DNA of 52,998 nt from Bacteriovoracaceae bacterium. GTDB lineage: Bacteria; Bdellovibrionota; Bacteriovoracia; Bacteriovoracales; Bacteriovoracaceae. Positions 23,568 through 38,623 of this stretch are shown piece by piece. Below the pieces are notes generated by a model. That model searched no databases and was not told the DNA's origin. It saw only the letters and a program-made list of their open reading frames with translations. The stretch covers positions 1-52,998 of the forward strand of contig QKCN01000110.1 of the NCBI GenBank assembly GCA_003245675.1, in the 5' to 3' direction. Made by a program: the position numbers and the translations under genes. The stretch's first letter is position 1. The number at the start of each line of letters is the position of its first letter.

Positions 23568-24827
23568 ATGGCCATTGCAGGAGTTATTTCACTTATTCTT
23601 CTTGGACTCATGGGAACTCCTTTATTTGTTGTTATGCTTGCTTTAGGTCTTGTCCTTTTCATTGGTGCAGGAATTGAAGGTTCCGCTGTTCCTGTTGAGA
23701 TGTATCGTCTCGCTTCTGCTCCAACTCTGACTTCAATACCTCTTTTTACTCTTGCTGGCTTGATGATGGCCCGCTCGAAAACTCCTGATCGCTTGCTTGC
23801 TTTTTTTGAAGCGAGTTTGGGGCGTTTCCCCGGAGGTGTGTCGTTTATTTCTTTAGTCCTCTGCGCATTTTTTACTGCATTTACTGGTGCTTCCGGTGTG
23901 ACCATCTTGGCTCTTGGAGGATTGCTCCTGCCGCTTCTTATTAAAGAAGGCATGAAAGATAATTTTGCTTTGGGACTGGTAACGACGGCTGGAGCAGTGG
24001 GATTGCTTTTTGCCCCCAGCCTTCCTCTTATTCTTTATGGAATTGTAGGGAAAGTTGATATTGAAAAACTTTTTTTGGCTGGCATTGTTCCTGGTATCAT
24101 ATTCATTTTAATTTACACTGTTTGGGCCGTTAAGAATGCACCGACACGACAGCGCGAAGCTTTTAGTTGGAAAAAGGTAAAGGAAAGTAGCTGGAATGCG
24201 CGTTTTGAACTTCCACTTCCCATTTTGGTACTCGCAGGTATTTATGGTGGAGTCGTGACCGTTACCGAAGCCGCGGCTTTGACTTCATTCTATGTTTTTG
24301 TGATGGAGTTTTTCTTGTATCGAGATCTTCGTTTAGATAAGGATCTTGTTTCTCTTTTTAGTGAAAGTGCGATGCTCGTGGGGGCCATTTTAATTATTTT
24401 GTGTTCTGCCATGGGGGTTACAAGCTATCTCATTGATGAAGAAATTCCGATGAAGCTTTTAGAATTTATGCAGCAGTGGATCACTAATAAGTATTTATTC
24501 CTTTTGGGTCTTAATGTTTTCTTGTTAATTGTTGGCTGTTTGATGGATGTTTTTAGTGCCATTATCGTCGTGGTGCCTTTGATTTTGCCAATGGCAGATG
24601 TGTTTGGAATAAATCCCATTCATATGGCAATTATCTTTCTTGCGAATTTAGAAATTGGTTTTATCACACCACCTGTTGGCATTAATCTTTTTATAAGTAG
24701 TTTTCGTTTTGGGAAGCCCATGCTTGAACTTTATCGTTCTGTTTGGCCTTTTGTTCTTATCTCTTTTATTGCGTTAATGTTAATAACTTATATTCCCGCA
24801 CTTTCTCTTTTTTGGTTTGATCTATGA
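23568..24827 (+). CDS. TRAP transporter large permease (DctM)
   Basis: 419 residues with about eleven to twelve membrane segments. It shows the DctM marks GRFPGGVSFISLVLCAFFTAFTGASGVTILALG-type (shortened here: FTGASGVTILALG), LPLILYGIVG, VTEAAALTSFY and the C-terminal NLEIGFITPPVGINLF. It carries the ligand across the inner membrane using the sodium gradient. The 3' end overlaps the next gene by 4 bp (ATGA), placing that gene in the same operon. Confidence 0.93.
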   Translation: MAIAGVISLILLGLMGTPLFVVMLALGLVLFIGAGIEGSAVPVEMYRLASAPTLTSIPLFTLAGLMMARSKTPDRLLAFFEASLGRFPGGVSFISLVLCAFFTAFTGASGVTILALGGLLLPLLIKEGMKDNFALGLVTTAGAVGLLFAPSLPLILYGIVGKVDIEKLFLAGIVPGIIFILIYTVWAVKNAPTRQREAFSWKKVKESSWNARFELPLPILVLAGIYGGVVTVTEAAALTSFYVFVMEFFLYRDLRLDKDLVSLFSESAMLVGAILIILCSAMGVTSYLIDEEIPMKLLEFMQQWITNKYLFLLGLNVFLLIVGCLMDVFSAIIVVVPLILPMADVFGINPIHMAIIFLANLEIGFITPPVGINLFISSFRFGKPMLELYRSVWPFVLISFIALMLITYIPALSLFWFDL

Positions 24828-26473
24828 ATGTAAATCGCTTGCTTTTCTTTGGTTTCACTTTGTTTTTTTGTTTTGCGCTTGAGGCAAAGTCTTTTGAGCC
24901 CTACGAGTATTATGGTTTTTCACGTTTGGGAATCGTTGATGCGGGTCTTTACTCTGGACCTTGGGCCCCCGAATTAGCTCCTTTAAATAAAAGAAATGAA
25001 CCCGCTTTTGCATTAGAAAAAGAGATGGATGTTTTTTTTCAACGTCATGTCAGTGAAGAACTTTCTGAGTTGAGCTCTTTTCTTTCTGAAGAAATTTTTG
25101 GTGGTTTAGAGTGTAATAGTGAGCTTCTTAATAAGAATTCATCCTATATGCGTTATTTGTTTCGCTTACAAACCATGAGTTATCTTTTTGCAGGACTACA
25201 GGAACTGAGCTTTTTATCTCAAAATCTTCATCTGGATAAGAACACTTGTACGATTGATTGGAATAAAGTTTTGAAGCAATGTCATCCTCAGACACCCGAT
25301 ATGAATTTGTTTTTAAAAAGGGCCCCCATTGTTATTGCTAGAGAAATACAGAATATGGAAAAACAGGCTCGCGAAATATTTAAATTTGAGCTTTGGAATG
25401 AAGAGGGTAAGAGGACATGGCCACTCTCTTACAATCGTTTGAGTTTTGTTAAAGGATCTGAGGCTCTTTTTTATCATGCCTCGGATATAAAAAAGGCGAT
25501 AGCACAGGCTTGTTCTGAAGATCTTGATCTTTTTTCTTATATTTGCAGTGAAGAAGATTCTCTCTATGGGGTTTCTTATGTTCCTCTGGCCTATCAGGTG
25601 ATTACTCGCTCTCATGTGATGCGAGTTATTGATGAAGGGGGCAAAGGGCGAAATTGTCTTAAACGTTTTGTTGATTTAGTCAGTTCTCGCGAGCGTTTGT
25701 ATCGTCAGCTCCCCACGATTTATGATTCTTGCTATAAGCTTTTTTCTCAAAAAAAAGATGCCATGTATTTGCAAGGTGATCTTTTTCTCCCCGGAGCCTT
25801 GAAAGAATTTGATATAAAAGGACTCGATGATTTTATCTATGCGGAAAATAAGCCGAAGGTTCAACCCACTGCGACTCCTCAGGTTGTTTTGGCCCAGCAG
25901 ACTCCAGTTGCTTTTGAGCCGACACCTACTCCGACTGTTACGGCTACACCTACGCCAACCGCAATACCAACTCCTCTTCCTACTGTTGCAGTTGTTCGCT
26001 CTGCTTTTGAGGAAGCTTGTTATCAATTTGCCAATCGGTCCCCTAATGTCGATTTTGTTGATGTGGATATGGAGGCCCTACGTGGAGATCTCGTTTTCAC
26101 CGATGAGCTGATGAAAAAGGCTGAAGGCCTTTGGGGCCCTTATCAAAAGGTTGAGGCATTACAGGAAATGAAGCAATTTGATAAATTGGGAAGTGAGCAG
26201 GCTCCAGTGCCTTTGCGCTTCTTGCTTTTTCTTATAAATTTGGAGCAACACCAAGGGCTTTACAATGTATTGTCTGTTATTGGAGAAGGCTTTTATGTTG
26301 TTAATGATTTGGAACGCAAAAGAAAAGCTGTATATATTAAATTGCTTAACGAAGAATCTTCTAATTGGCAGTGGCAGTTGCGTTTGACAGAGGCTCCGCC
26401 TATTCTTCCAGAAGTTAAAACGGAAAAAAAAGAAGAAGATAAAGGGAAGAAGACGAAGAAAAAGGGTAAATAG
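24824..26473 (+). CDS. Secreted protein of unknown function, fifth gene of the TPAT operon
   Basis: 549 residues with a signal peptide (about 1-22). A globular Cys-containing region (about 25-335) is followed by a Pro-Thr linker (about 345-390, PTPTPTVTATPTPTA), a second domain (about 395-530) and a Lys/Glu tail (KKEEDKGKKTKKKGK). No family recognised. Its ATG overlaps the dctM stop (ATGA), so it is made with the transporter and may be an extra periplasmic part, perhaps reaching through the wall via the PT linker (inference). The 53-bp repeat array begins right after its stop. Confidence 0.7.
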   Translation: MNVNRLLFFGFTLFFCFALEAKSFEPYEYYGFSRLGIVDAGLYSGPWAPELAPLNKRNEPAFALEKEMDVFFQRHVSEELSELSSFLSEEIFGGLECNSELLNKNSSYMRYLFRLQTMSYLFAGLQELSFLSQNLHLDKNTCTIDWNKVLKQCHPQTPDMNLFLKRAPIVIAREIQNMEKQAREIFKFELWNEEGKRTWPLSYNRLSFVKGSEALFYHASDIKKAIAQACSEDLDLFSYICSEEDSLYGVSYVPLAYQVITRSHVMRVIDEGGKGRNCLKRFVDLVSSRERLYRQLPTIYDSCYKLFSQKKDAMYLQGDLFLPGALKEFDIKGLDDFIYAENKPKVQPTATPQVVLAQQTPVAFEPTPTPTVTATPTPTAIPTPLPTVAVVRSAFEEACYQFANRSPNVDFVDVDMEALRGDLVFTDELMKKAEGLWGPYQKVEALQEMKQFDKLGSEQAPVPLRFLLFLINLEQHQGLYNVLSVIGEGFYVVNDLERKRKAVYIKLLNEESSNWQWQLRLTEAPPILPEVKTEKKEEDKGKKTKKKGK

Positions 26474-26487
26474 CGATTGTCAGTCCT

Positions 26488-26742
26488 TGTATATCGCCGC
26501 CATACATCCTGTATATCGCCGATTCCCGCGCATCCAGCGCTCCATCGGCATACCATACATCCTGTATATCGCCGATTCCCGCGCATCCAGCGCTCCATCG
26601 GCATACCACCATCGGCATACCATACATCCTGTATATCGCCGATTCCCGCGCATCCAGCGCTCCATCGGCATACCATACATCCTGTATATCGCCGATTCCC
26701 GCGCATCCAGCGCTCCATCGGCATACCATACATCCTGTATAT
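26488..26742. repeat. Perfect 53-bp tandem repeat array, about 57% G+C
   Basis: Four full, identical copies of a 53-bp unit lie at 26501-26553, 26554-26606, 26621-26673 and 26674-26726. A partial 16-bp copy follows at 26727-26742 and a partial copy precedes at 26488-26499. A 14-bp duplication of the unit's own end (26607-26620) splits copies 2 and 3. Each unit holds the dyads ATACA-TCC-TGTAT and GCCGAT...ATCGGC, the latter enclosing GCGC-ATCCA-GCGC, so each copy can fold as a hairpin. The unit is far richer in G+C than its surroundings. The array sits between the 3' ends of convergent genes. Confidence 0.95.
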
Positions 26743-26769
26743 AAAAAGCCCCTCGCATTCACGAGGGGC
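26743..26769 (-). terminator. Rho-independent terminator for the minus-strand gene
   Basis: GCCCCTCG (26748-26755), a 6-nt loop and CGAGGGGC (26762-26769). On the minus strand five T follow (26747-26743). It lies 45 bp past the stop of the gene at 26814-27833 and directly abuts the repeat array. On the plus strand no T-run follows. Confidence 0.75.
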
Positions 26770-26813: not shown

Positions 26814-27833
26814 CTATTTTAGGAATTCTCTATAACAAGTTGATTGATCTTGTGGCAAAAGGTAGTTCGGGCAGTGATTTTTGGCCGTTTTCATGAAATC
26901 ATCACCGGCACCAGCAATAGCTCCTTCGATACATTCCACTTCTCCAATATAGGTTTCAGTCGCTTTTGTACACATTTCAGAGATGATGTACTTTGTGTCA
27001 GCTTCATTGAAATAGATTTTACTAGAGTCTGAAAGATAGTTTTTCAAGCACTCTGCATTTGATAGATAATAACTTGTCGTTTTATCGCAAAGTCTTACGC
27101 CCGCTTGCATTTCACTGCTTTGTGTTGCTTTCATTCCGGCATTGAGGATTTTGGTTTGGGTTTCATAGCTTATAAAATTATCTGCGGCATTGTAGATAAC
27201 TTTATTAATCCAATAACCTTTCACGGGTCTTTGTGGTCTTGATGGTGGAGTGTAATTGTCTTCTTCCATCGATTCATCAAATGCTTTTAAACCAATGGCA
27301 ATCGCACGTTTTCTGAGCTCTGTTTTTTCTCTGGCATTGAATTTCTCGCTAGACAGTTGAGCATTGGTTCCTTCAATGGTCAAAAGTTTATCTTCATAAG
27401 AAATACCTTGCGCATTTTTATAAGAGTTGCCGCTTGTTGTTTTGAGGTCATAAAAATCACGGTTGGCATCCATGAAATTTACATTGCCATTTGCTGTTGC
27501 ATAAAACAATTTTTGGTAGATAATTCTGAAATCACTTGCTCCACCTTCTGGACGAAGACTATATCTTTTAGTGCTTTTAACATCACTGGCACAATTATTA
27601 AGATCAACAGTAAGTAATTCTTCGCCATTGGCGGAAAGAATGGCTTCGATGCGTTGTCCATTTCCTTTTAGCTCTCCACAAGTCGCGCTGTTAAGAATGC
27701 TGTAAGTTGCAGCTCTATTGAGATTAATTTTACAAGCGCTTTCAATTTTATCGACTACGGATTGACTACATTCTGCGGCCATGACACTAGATGCGATTAA
27801 AGCAGTACTAAGACCTAATAATAAAGATTTCAT
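26814..27833 (-). CDS. Secreted hypothetical protein
   Basis: 339 residues. The start at 27833 gives a clean signal peptide (MKSLLLGLSTALIASSVMAAEC) with AGGAG 5 nt upstream; the frame extends 26 codons further but that part has no signal character. The mature protein has about nine to ten Cys, including a C-terminal cluster (ECIEGAIAG, KNHCPNYLLPQDQSTC), and Ala-rich helices that look repetitive (NAADNFIS, GAGDDFMKTA). Periplasmic or secreted; no family recognised. It lies downstream of the HAD gene on the same strand with a 111-bp spacer, so it probably has its own promoter. Confidence 0.75.
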   Translation of the reverse strand: MKSLLLGLSTALIASSVMAAECSQSVVDKIESACKINLNRAATYSILNSATCGELKGNGQRIEAILSANGEELLTVDLNNCASDVKSTKRYSLRPEGGASDFRIIYQKLFYATANGNVNFMDANRDFYDLKTTSGNSYKNAQGISYEDKLLTIEGTNAQLSSEKFNAREKTELRKRAIAIGLKAFDESMEEDNYTPPSRPQRPVKGYWINKVIYNAADNFISYETQTKILNAGMKATQSSEMQAGVRLCDKTTSYYLSNAECLKNYLSDSSKIYFNEADTKYIISEMCTKATETYIGEVECIEGAIAGAGDDFMKTAKNHCPNYLLPQDQSTCYREFLK

Positions 27834-27944
27834 AAAAACTCCTATGTGTCTGTGTGTGGACAATGTTATAAACAGTGGAGGATATATAGCACGGCGCGTA
27901 AGATGATTCACAGAAAAAGACGCATTGTGTAAATTTTACTTATG

Positions 27945-36613: not shown

Positions 36614-38623
36614 TTATCTTCTTCTGCTACTACTGCCACTTCCTGAGCTTGTTCTTGAAGAAGAGCCACTGCTTCTACTGCTACTTCCTGAACTTGTGGA
36701 AGATCCGCTGCTTCTGCTTGGTGGGTTATAGCGACTTCCAGAACTACTGCTTCCAGAGCTTGTAGAAGAACCACTGCTTCTACTTGGTGGGTTATAGCGA
36801 CTTCCAGAAGATGAAGATCCAGTTGATGGGCGAGTTGTGCTTCCTGAACCAGTTGAAGGACTTGTTCTAGGCTCTGTTCTTCTTGGAGTTGAAGGACTTG
36901 TTGTACTGCCGGACCCTGTGGATGGACGAGTTGTACTTCCAGATGAAGGAGGATTATAGCGTCCACCAGTTGGGGTTCCTGTTGATGGTCGAGTTGTACT
37001 TCCTGAACCAGTTGAAGGACTTGTTCTAGGCTCTGTTCTTCTTGGAGTTGAAGGACTTGTTGTACTTCCGGACCCTGTGGATGGACGAGTTGTACTTCCA
37101 GATGAAGGAGGATTATAGCGTCCACCAGTTGGAGTTCCAGTTGAAGGACGAGTTGTGCTTCCTGAACCTGTTGAAGGGCGAGTTGTTCTTGTTGGAGGAG
37201 TTGTTACTCTAGGTGCTGGCTCTACTCTTCTGCTTGGAGGATTATAGCGTGGCCCACGAGGAGTTGTTGGAGTACTGCGATAGTCGCGGTAGTTAGGAAC
37301 AGTACTTCTGTGGTGACTTACGCAAGTTCCGTATGTTGTAGAGTAATACTCGTCAGAACGGCAGCTTCTTGTATATGTTGAGCGATAGTAAGTACAGCGA
37401 CCGGCGCGATAATCAAAGTAAGAACCATATCCACAAGATGTTGAACTGCGGTATTCACAGCGGTGAGTGTAAGGACTCAAGTATTGGTTGTATCCGCAAT
37501 TGTATTGTGTATAGATGCTGCGGCAATATCCTCTATTGTAATCATAGTATTCACCGTGACGACAGCTTTTGTATGTTGATACACAGAAGCCTCTGTAGTG
37601 ATCATAGTATTCACCGGCACGACAGTTGCTATAATAGCTATAGTATACGCAACGGTTTTGTGACCAAGAGTAATATTTTCCCATAGGACAAGAGTGAGCA
37701 ACTCTTTCACAGCGATTTGAGAAGAAATCCCATTCATAGTTCCAAGGACAGCGATAGGCTCCTGTGCGTACGCAGCGGAATTGAAAGTGGTCAAAGTAGA
37801 ATCCTACAGAACAACGAATTGATGATGGAGGATTTGGATAGCTCACACAACGATTGTAAGTAGGATCATAGAATTGATTTGCTCCACAGCTAACAGTTCC
37901 TGCGGCGGCACAATAGTGTAGGTACTCGTCATAATAGTAGCCGGGAGGACACATATACCCTTGATCGTCATTGTCATCGATTTCAATAACGTATTGCTTG
38001 TAGATTTCTCTGTTGGCATTGCTGCTGAGTTTAATGATAAAAGAGAAGAGACCCGCATCGCGAGGAGTTCCTTCAATAGTGAGTTCTCCGCGATAGTCAT
38101 CTGCACGAACCGACATTCCGGTCGGAAGATTTTGGTCAACAATGTCCATTTGGAATTGCTCTGTTGTATAAAGATTAAATTTTAGAGTTTCTTGGTAGTA
38201 GGAGTTCACTTTTCCATCTTTTAAGTTTTCATCAGCAGGAAAGAGTGTTTGGTAGCTACGAGGAAGATTGGACATAAGGCAAACTTTTTCATTGGAAACG
38301 GTTTCACCTTGATAGCTTTGTCCCTCAATGCTCAGATAAAAGCACCATTTGCCTGCGAAGGCAGGGCGACCAAAAAGAAGAAGTGATCCATATCCTGTTT
38401 CTTGTACAGACATGCCAGGAGGAAGTTCATCATCATCAACCATCCAGCGAGCTTGGTTGTCTTTAGCTGTAAACTCAATTTCTTGATATGCATCCCAATC
38501 CATATAGGTAGAGTTGCGATCGTAATCAATAACATTCGCGTTGGCGCGAAAGGCGAGAATTGTTCCTGCGAGTACTAAAAACGTCAGCCAGAAATAGCGC
38601 ATGACAATTGTTTTTGGATTCAC
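36614..38623 (-). CDS. Large secreted Cys/Tyr-repeat protein with Ser/Thr/Pro-rich tail
   Basis: 669 residues. The signal peptide covers about 1-29. Two Ig-like putative domains follow (LPPGMSVQ...GRPAFAG and LPTGMSVR...GTPRDAG). Residues about 225-440 hold ten tandem modules, each with two Cys separated by exactly 12 residues (for example CGANQFYDPTYNRC, CRAGEYYDHYRGFC), rich in Tyr. The last 200 residues are low-complexity Ser/Thr/Pro/Gly/Arg with long duplications. It is probably a surface or secreted adhesin-like protein (inference). The start is GTG 38623, with AAGGAGGT just upstream, rather than the ATG 21 bp later. A sigma-54-like promoter lies upstream. Confidence 0.75.
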   Translation of the reverse strand: MNPKTIVMRYFWLTFLVLAGTILAFRANANVIDYDRNSTYMDWDAYQEIEFTAKDNQARWMVDDDELPPGMSVQETGYGSLLLFGRPAFAGKWCFYLSIEGQSYQGETVSNEKVCLMSNLPRSYQTLFPADENLKDGKVNSYYQETLKFNLYTTEQFQMDIVDQNLPTGMSVRADDYRGELTIEGTPRDAGLFSFIIKLSSNANREIYKQYVIEIDDNDDQGYMCPPGYYYDEYLHYCAAAGTVSCGANQFYDPTYNRCVSYPNPPSSIRCSVGFYFDHFQFRCVRTGAYRCPWNYEWDFFSNRCERVAHSCPMGKYYSWSQNRCVYYSYYSNCRAGEYYDHYRGFCVSTYKSCRHGEYYDYNRGYCRSIYTQYNCGYNQYLSPYTHRCEYRSSTSCGYGSYFDYRAGRCTYYRSTYTRSCRSDEYYSTTYGTCVSHHRSTVPNYRDYRSTPTTPRGPRYNPPSRRVEPAPRVTTPPTRTTRPSTGSGSTTRPSTGTPTGGRYNPPSSGSTTRPSTGSGSTTSPSTPRRTEPRTSPSTGSGSTTRPSTGTPTGGRYNPPSSGSTTRPSTGSGSTTSPSTPRRTEPRTSPSTGSGSTTRPSTGSSSSGSRYNPPSRSSGSSTSSGSSSSGSRYNPPSRSSGSSTSSGSSSRSSGSSSRTSSGSGSSSRRR
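36729..37139 (-). repeat. Internal 159-bp and 66-bp coding duplications
   Basis: A 53-codon unit (containing PTGGRYNPPSSGSTTRPS and TPRRTEPRTSPS) occurs twice in tandem, giving a DNA period of 159 bp (for example 36870 versus 37029). A second 22-codon unit (SSSSGSRYNPPSRSSGSSTS) is repeated nearer the end. Both periods keep the frame. Confidence 0.85.

Follow-up and report, generated by a model that had tools for sequence, protein, structure and literature searches.

A two-hairpin repeat element found behind terminators in Bacteriovoracaceae, with putative CsrA-binding loops

Group IIC introns insert next to intrinsic terminators, a few bases past the T-tract, and in one orientation. The repeat of the E. 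coli CsrB RNA is CAGGA(U/A/C)G, and the CsrA site obtained by SELEX is RUACARGGAUGU (PMC7652899). Bacillaceae-1 (RF01690) is listed in Rfam with no assigned function, and its strand is uncertain; its reverse complement, which according to the RMfam authors fits the CsrA-binding motif, has been proposed as a CsrA-binding RNA, and the discoverers of the family were themselves unsure of its strand (PMC4333381). Here, we describe a repeat element that resembles each of these systems in part, present as a tandem array in a stretch of 52,998 nucleotides (hereafter the window) from the genome of a Bacteriovoracaceae bacterium. A literature search with the literal core of the element, ACAGGATGT, returned just primers and unrelated text, and we found no description of the element in the literature searched.

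The array and its setting in the window

The array (26500-26742) consists of four base-identical copies of 53 bp, each with 30 G+C, and a fifth copy of a small dyad. Its G+C content is 55% as against 40% for the window, in agreement with the initial annotation, which had described four identical copies, 30/53 G+C, in AT-rich surroundings. The array had also been called a perfect tandem repeat; the four copies are indeed identical, but they are not continuous, since a partial duplication of 14 bp (26595-26622; TRF period 14) lies between copies 2 and 3, so that the array is split 2+2. Beyond the fifth small hairpin comes what is left of one more, degenerate unit (about 26486-26499). TRF run on the window returned a period of 53, with exact blocks of 67 and 120 bp. 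The small dyad was found in five perfect copies (ATACATCCTGTAT), where 0.26 sites would be expected within two mismatches. Open frames are present across the array because of the repeat period. The copy number is that of a draft assembly, which has 124 contigs and is 88% complete.

The minus strand is the informative one: over the 243 nt of the array it carries 17 GGA triplets and the plus strand none. Matches to the array were scored with two covariance models, R1 (built from seven units) and R2 (built from 62 units). Copy 1, the terminator-proximal one (26688-26742, minus strand; R2 58.4 bits, E 2e-12; R1 70.9 bits, E 8e-15), comprises a small hairpin, ATACA-GGA-TGTAT, a GGTAT linker, and a large hairpin, GCCGAT..GCGC-TGGAT-GCGC..ATCGGC. 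On the same strand, copy 2 (26635-26689; R1 70.9 bits) is identical to copy 1, copy 3 (26568-26636), whose unit is broken by the 14-bp partial duplication, is matched by R1 and R2 with an insert, and copy 4 (26515-26569) again scores 70.9 bits with R1. The fifth small hairpin (26502-26514) and the degenerate remnant together span 26486-26514 and were recognized from the sequence. Both dyads reported earlier, ATACA-TCC-TGTAT and GCCGAT..GCGC-ATCCA-GCGC..ATCGGC, are present; the CsrA-type GGA loops of the minus strand had been overlooked. Compared with shuffled sequences, both strands of the array fold far more stably (minus strand, z -5.8; plus strand, z -7.7), and single units fold as modeled (copy 1 at -20.2 kcal/mol).

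In the orientation of the element, the upstream gene is a 365-aa ORF on the minus strand (26814-27911; no Pfam match), whose terminator is abutted by the array. The terminator stem-loop (26748-26769, minus strand; GCCCCTCGTGAATGCGAGGGGC TTTTTATATA) has nine pairs, seven of them G-C, and is followed by a T-tract at 26743-26747. On its other side, the array starts 12-27 bp 3' of the stop codon of a convergent gene (24824-26473, plus strand; 549-aa ORF, no Pfam match), the last of a TRAP-transporter operon with Pfam matches to TAtT, DctP, DctQ and DctM. The location first described, at the end of this operon (then termed 'TPAT') and touching the terminator of the opposite gene, was thus confirmed. 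No sigma-70-like promoter site was found on the minus strand near the array in this region of the window. With the copies lying 3' of a terminator and no such site on that strand, transcription of the array would depend on read-through.

Two further features of the window concern its proteins. The 549-aa product contains a Thr-Pro-rich segment. A second gene (36614-38623, minus strand) codes for a secreted-looking protein of 669 aa whose middle is rich in Cys and Tyr and whose tail is rich in Ser, Thr and Pro, and the tail is encoded by near-perfect DNA repeats of 159 and 66 bp (TRF, 95% and 88%).

The element family and its GGA loops

The minus-strand unit represents an element of about 52 bases with two hairpins, AT-NNN-CAGGATG-N'N'N'-KGTAT followed by an outer stem that encloses an inner hairpin with a GGA loop; the conserved foot of the hairpin is GTAT. 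There are 11 model matches in the genome of origin. Copies were found on other contigs as well as in the window, and most share the layout terminator-TTTTT-AT-NNN-CAGGATG-N'N'N'-KGTAT-large hairpin-GAT. Using R1, matches were detected in 44 of 129 Bacteriovoracaceae genomes, with up to 16 copies each, so that the unit is found again both in its own genome and in relatives, the two places where the initial annotation had proposed to look. R2 was run over 340 genomes sampled evenly from the phylum, a search that doubled as a negative control; 39 genomes had matches, and all were Bacteriovoracaceae among the matches listed. The element is intergenic in nearly all cases. Tandem copies occur independently in three other genomes (G022, G004 and G078). 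We conclude that the array in the window is no isolated VNTR: a dispersed element was amplified locally, in tandem, and the strong gene conversion suggested before need not be invoked.

A scan of named genomes found carriers in Bacteriovorax, Halobacteriovorax and Bacteriovoracaceae MAGs. Hits of the same scan in Xanthomarina, ANME-2, Micrarchaeota and a deltaproteobacterial MAG were chance pattern matches on inspection. A genuine copy was found in a contig of one Gammaproteobacteria MAG, 3' of a terminator and among genes that read as gammaproteobacterial. A plasmid search with the array DNA gave one weak chance match, and none of the viral contigs searched carried the element; at the sensitivity of that search, spread by phage is unsupported. 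The Gammaproteobacteria MAG with the genuine copy also carries a separate repeat of like plan with GGA-loop hairpins (G348; L197, L201 and L205), in at least three near-identical copies, with a GCACATGGATGTGC hairpin followed by a larger hairpin whose inner loop is GGCAGGATGCC. Possibly, this repeat is a gammaproteobacterial cousin of the element, with CsrA-type loops.

An alignment of 62 copies revealed a well-conserved fold. Pairing was kept in 97% of the alignment cells. Changes on both sides were counted in 172 cells; shuffles gave 43 such cells, and sliding the structure along the alignment gave no more than 20. The three loop positions G-G-A were conserved in 59, 62 and 62 of the 62 copies in the small hairpin and in 61, 62 and 60 in the large hairpin, where the window copies have TGGAT as the inner loop. 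The GGA loops were retained also in variant inner hairpins, and each element contains on average 3.0 GGA, against 1.8 in shuffles. At the level of sequence, then, the copies form a family with a set orientation, adjacency to terminators, and covarying stems that carry fixed GGA loops.

The small loop equals the CsrB repeat, including its degeneracy (the base 3' of the first GGA is U in 54, C in 6 and A in 2 of the 62 copies), but falls one base short of the optimum found by SELEX. The CsrA protein encoded by the genome of origin (C89:17148-17303, E 9e-27) aligns to solved CsrA/RsmE structures. Leu4 and Arg44, which we take to be key RNA-binding residues of CsrA, are in place. The csrA gene was found in 119 of the 129 family genomes (117 over the curated cut-off), and because it is nearly universal its presence is uninformative as a correlate of the element. 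Absence of the element from most csrA-bearing relatives implies that it is dispensable.

The Rfam models for CsrB/C and RsmX/Y/Z gave no match at threshold, the one 17-bit RsmZ match (E 1.3) being at chance level, and TwoAYGGAY (RF01731) gave none up to E 5-10. At permissive thresholds Rfam matches were mostly terminator-like and due to chance, and over the element itself only Bacillaceae-1 recurred. Four copies matched RF01690 over its full length on the opposite strand, at 22-26 bits (best 25.8; cut-off 35), and these full-model alignments place the two-hairpin plan with (reverse complement) CAGGAYG loops in the element. The element falls below the cut-off and is not filed as a member of RF01690. 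In the two plasmid-collection records of Bacilli that were checked, Bacillaceae-1 is not found behind a terminator, and in a Bacillus velezensis record it lies in the 16S-23S rRNA spacer, so that we do not extend the placement rule of the element to Bacillaceae-1.

Together, these features lead us to favor, tentatively and at somewhat less than an even chance, the view that this is a mobile, terminator-seeking two-hairpin element that places putative CsrA decoy sites in read-through RNA. A mobile, non-autonomous element of the Bacteriovoracaceae would be gained a few bases 3' of a terminator T-tract, oriented in one way and in many cases behind highly expressed genes, and the array in the window would be a copy of it that was amplified in tandem. 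The read-through transcript would display two GGA-loop hairpins, of the CsrB type CAGGA(U/C/A)G and CAGGA, and RNA from the array in the window would offer nine. Read-through of strong genes may then yield a low level of decoy RNA able to bind CsrA, and the element may be tolerated or kept for this effect. Counting against this view are the dependence on read-through, the symmetric pairing in the stems (see below), the many csrA-bearing relatives that lack the element, the small loop that is short by one base, the lack of a CsrB/Rsm family match at the Rfam thresholds, and the copies with no upstream terminator. A bolder proposal, which we regard as unlikely, is that the element, by seeking out terminators of highly transcribed genes, spreads decoy sites through the genome, and that CsrA activity in these predatory bacteria is tuned by the sum of read-through from growth genes and flagellin, the copies acting as a distributed sponge that has no dedicated sRNA gene. 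If so, the architecture of Bacillaceae-1 and the gammaproteobacterial copy would make this kind of sponge widespread but unrecognized.

Placement behind terminators

At least five T residues occur within the 8 nt upstream of 49 out of 70 copies. Moreover, a hairpin-plus-T terminator lies at most 60 nt upstream in 44 of the 70, as compared with 2-5 of 70 in control flanks read likewise. Some copies have no upstream terminator, yet the terminator-adjacent position first noted for the array holds as a general rule. The copies in the genome of origin share one orientation, and their terminators mostly differ in sequence, which indicates that the terminators were not duplicated along with the element. 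In 57 of 68 cases the upstream gene shares the strand of the element; of these 57 copies, 35 are followed by a convergent and 22 by a co-directional gene.

Genes upstream of the element include those for ribosomal proteins L19 and L31, a ribosome hibernation factor and flagellins, as well as CspA (cold-shock protein), AtpE (ATP synthase c), peroxiredoxin, citrate synthase, H+-pyrophosphatase and SWIB proteins. MetK is found upstream twice, in different genera, S9 was identified by eye upstream of the copy L002, and two RNA genes, for RNase P RNA and 5S rRNA, also precede the element. None of the 27 convergent genes examined was of the highly expressed kinds listed here for the upstream genes. 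Our impression, from this informal control and with no formal enrichment statistic, is that the element often lies behind highly expressed genes.

Several individual loci are worth recording. At two paralogous loci of genome G071 (L086 and L097), the element follows one gene by a few bases and is separated by 9 nt from the start of another, which codes for a FAD-dependent oxidoreductase-like protein; this is a potential position for translation control. In genome G135, one copy (L138) is downstream of an HU/IHF-like gene, near a sequence that reads as tRNA-Cys-like. Downstream of a metK-linked copy, L005 1814-1940 is cobalamin riboswitch-like, scoring 47.9 bits and hence below the threshold of 50.

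Gain of the element, competing explanations and known systems

At four loci of G135 (rplS, subtilase, flagellin and terC) the element is present, and the orthologous sites of congeners are empty in all four. The terminator is intact in the empty sites at rplS, subtilase and flagellin. At the subtilase locus the empty site reads CCTTTTTATTT-GAGCTTTC and that of G135 reads CTATTTT-element-GAGCTTTA; at rplS, the T-tract of the congeners runs to the start of rnhB with no element in between. The gain at terC is larger, and no strong terminator is found there. As several outgroups are empty, gain in G135 is the simpler reading, and from these site comparisons the element appears to have been gained recently, in a REP/MITE-like manner, at all four sites; we infer that this occurred by transposition and not by some other form of copying. 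Three genomes have the element in the SWIB intergenic region, one of them with its orientation reversed, which suggests repeated insertion. No terminal repeats were consistent among the copies. One copy in G135 (L111, 577-695) is at the center of an inverted repeat of 18 bp and 94% (TTCGACAGATTTAAATCA) with arms 83 nt apart, and the flank of the terC copy (L140) is partly like that of L111 (TTTAAATC, CTAGCATCT). These flanks may belong to a larger composite mobile unit.

Nearly as likely as a CsrA decoy is a purely DNA-level selfish repeat, REP- or MITE-like, whose single-stranded hairpins would be recognized by a trans-acting enzyme; CsrA would be irrelevant, and terminators would be the insertion target or a harmless landing place. 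The recent gains at precise post-T-tract sites, the patchy distribution and the tandem amplification in the window would all be expected of such a repeat. So would the symmetry of the stems: G-U and A-C mismatches are equally rare (6 and 7), whereas selection on one strand of RNA should favor G-U, which points to copying or correction of the element as DNA. Of all the evidence that speaks against a simple RNA explanation, this symmetry weighs most. However, no cognate enzyme emerged. The genome of origin has no Y1 (IS200/RAYT-type) transposase, the kind of enzyme for which the initial annotation had advised a check, and no reverse transcriptase. Across the 129 genomes, Y1 transposases are found in 29 of 44 with the element and in 57 of 85 without it (Fisher p = 1.0), reverse transcriptases show no association either (p = 1.0), and none of the Y1 transposase or reverse transcriptase genes that were fetched has an element next to it. 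RAYT and reverse-transcriptase movers were rejected on both counts, association and linkage. Nor does a DNA-level repeat explain why GGA is kept in both loops, variants included, or why the allowed variation fits the CsrB repeat, and harmlessness alone leaves the terminator-fixed orientation unexplained.

It seems improbable that the element is a structural device at 3' ends like the BIMEs of E. coli, serving as a fail-safe terminator, as a block to converging polymerases or in protection of mRNA 3' ends. Half of the copies do lie between converging genes, and the structure is strong on either strand; yet an already strong terminator precedes the elements, a T-tract (at least five T in 8 nt) follows in just 4 of 70 copies, and GGA in both loops would not be required. 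About a third of the copies, moreover, are between co-directional genes, and the constant feature is the upstream same-strand terminator; separation of convergent transcription, as first suggested, therefore does not account for the data. Regulation through 5' leaders, in which CsrA bound to an element just before a start codon would act as a repressor of the gene that follows, in operon transcripts or in those made by read-through, is very improbable as an explanation: the element ends at, or within about 10-20 nt of, the next start in several co-directional cases (rnhB after rplS in G135; L086/L097; L103), but such copies are a minority, and leader control cannot be the general role, as the gene at which the array in the window ends is convergent. 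Finally, it is hardly credible that the four-copy array is partly an assembly artefact of a locus with one true copy. The draft has 124 contigs, and perfect repeats are prone to misassembly; still, real internal structure is evident from the 14-bp interruption and the degenerate remnant, and tandem copies occur independently in G022, G004 and G078.

Predatory Bdellovibrionota thus harbor an abundant repeat that looks mobile, has no known mover and obeys an unusually sharp rule of placement. Should its loops bind CsrA, the element would connect selfish DNA with global post-transcriptional regulation and would allow Bacillaceae-1 to be put to a concrete test. Should they not, the question becomes which enzyme puts hairpin DNA behind terminators with neither a Y1 transposase nor a reverse transcriptase.

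Among described systems, the E. coli sRNAs rrA, rrB and rrF are non-repeat and lie between two terminators, whereas a second terminator is near the element in only 3 of 70 copies. REP/BIME sequences are, like the element, short dispersed extragenic palindromes at gene 3' ends, in tandem or inverted clusters and patchy in relatives. The REP/BIME-type assignment of the initial annotation stands to that extent, but not further: the foot is GTAT instead of GTAG, there is no RAYT, either in the genome of origin or linked to copies, and the position after terminators is fixed. Group IIC introns share the post-T-tract site and the single orientation, but the element is about 52 bp long, with no intron structure and no associated reverse transcriptase. 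CsrB/CsrC and RsmX/Y/Z likewise present several GGA motifs in hairpin loops, and the small loop is the CsrB repeat (PMC7652899); these, however, are promoter-driven sRNAs, whereas the element, probably not promoter-driven, occurs as many short copies dispersed behind terminators and has no Rfam match among them. Bacillaceae-1 differs in phylum, in its linker (UCA and not GTAT), in its rRNA spacer site and in scores of 22-26 bits, below 35, but its reverse complement has a like plan: a small stem with a CAGGAUG loop, a short linker, and a second, larger stem that has CAGGA(C)G as its inner loop.
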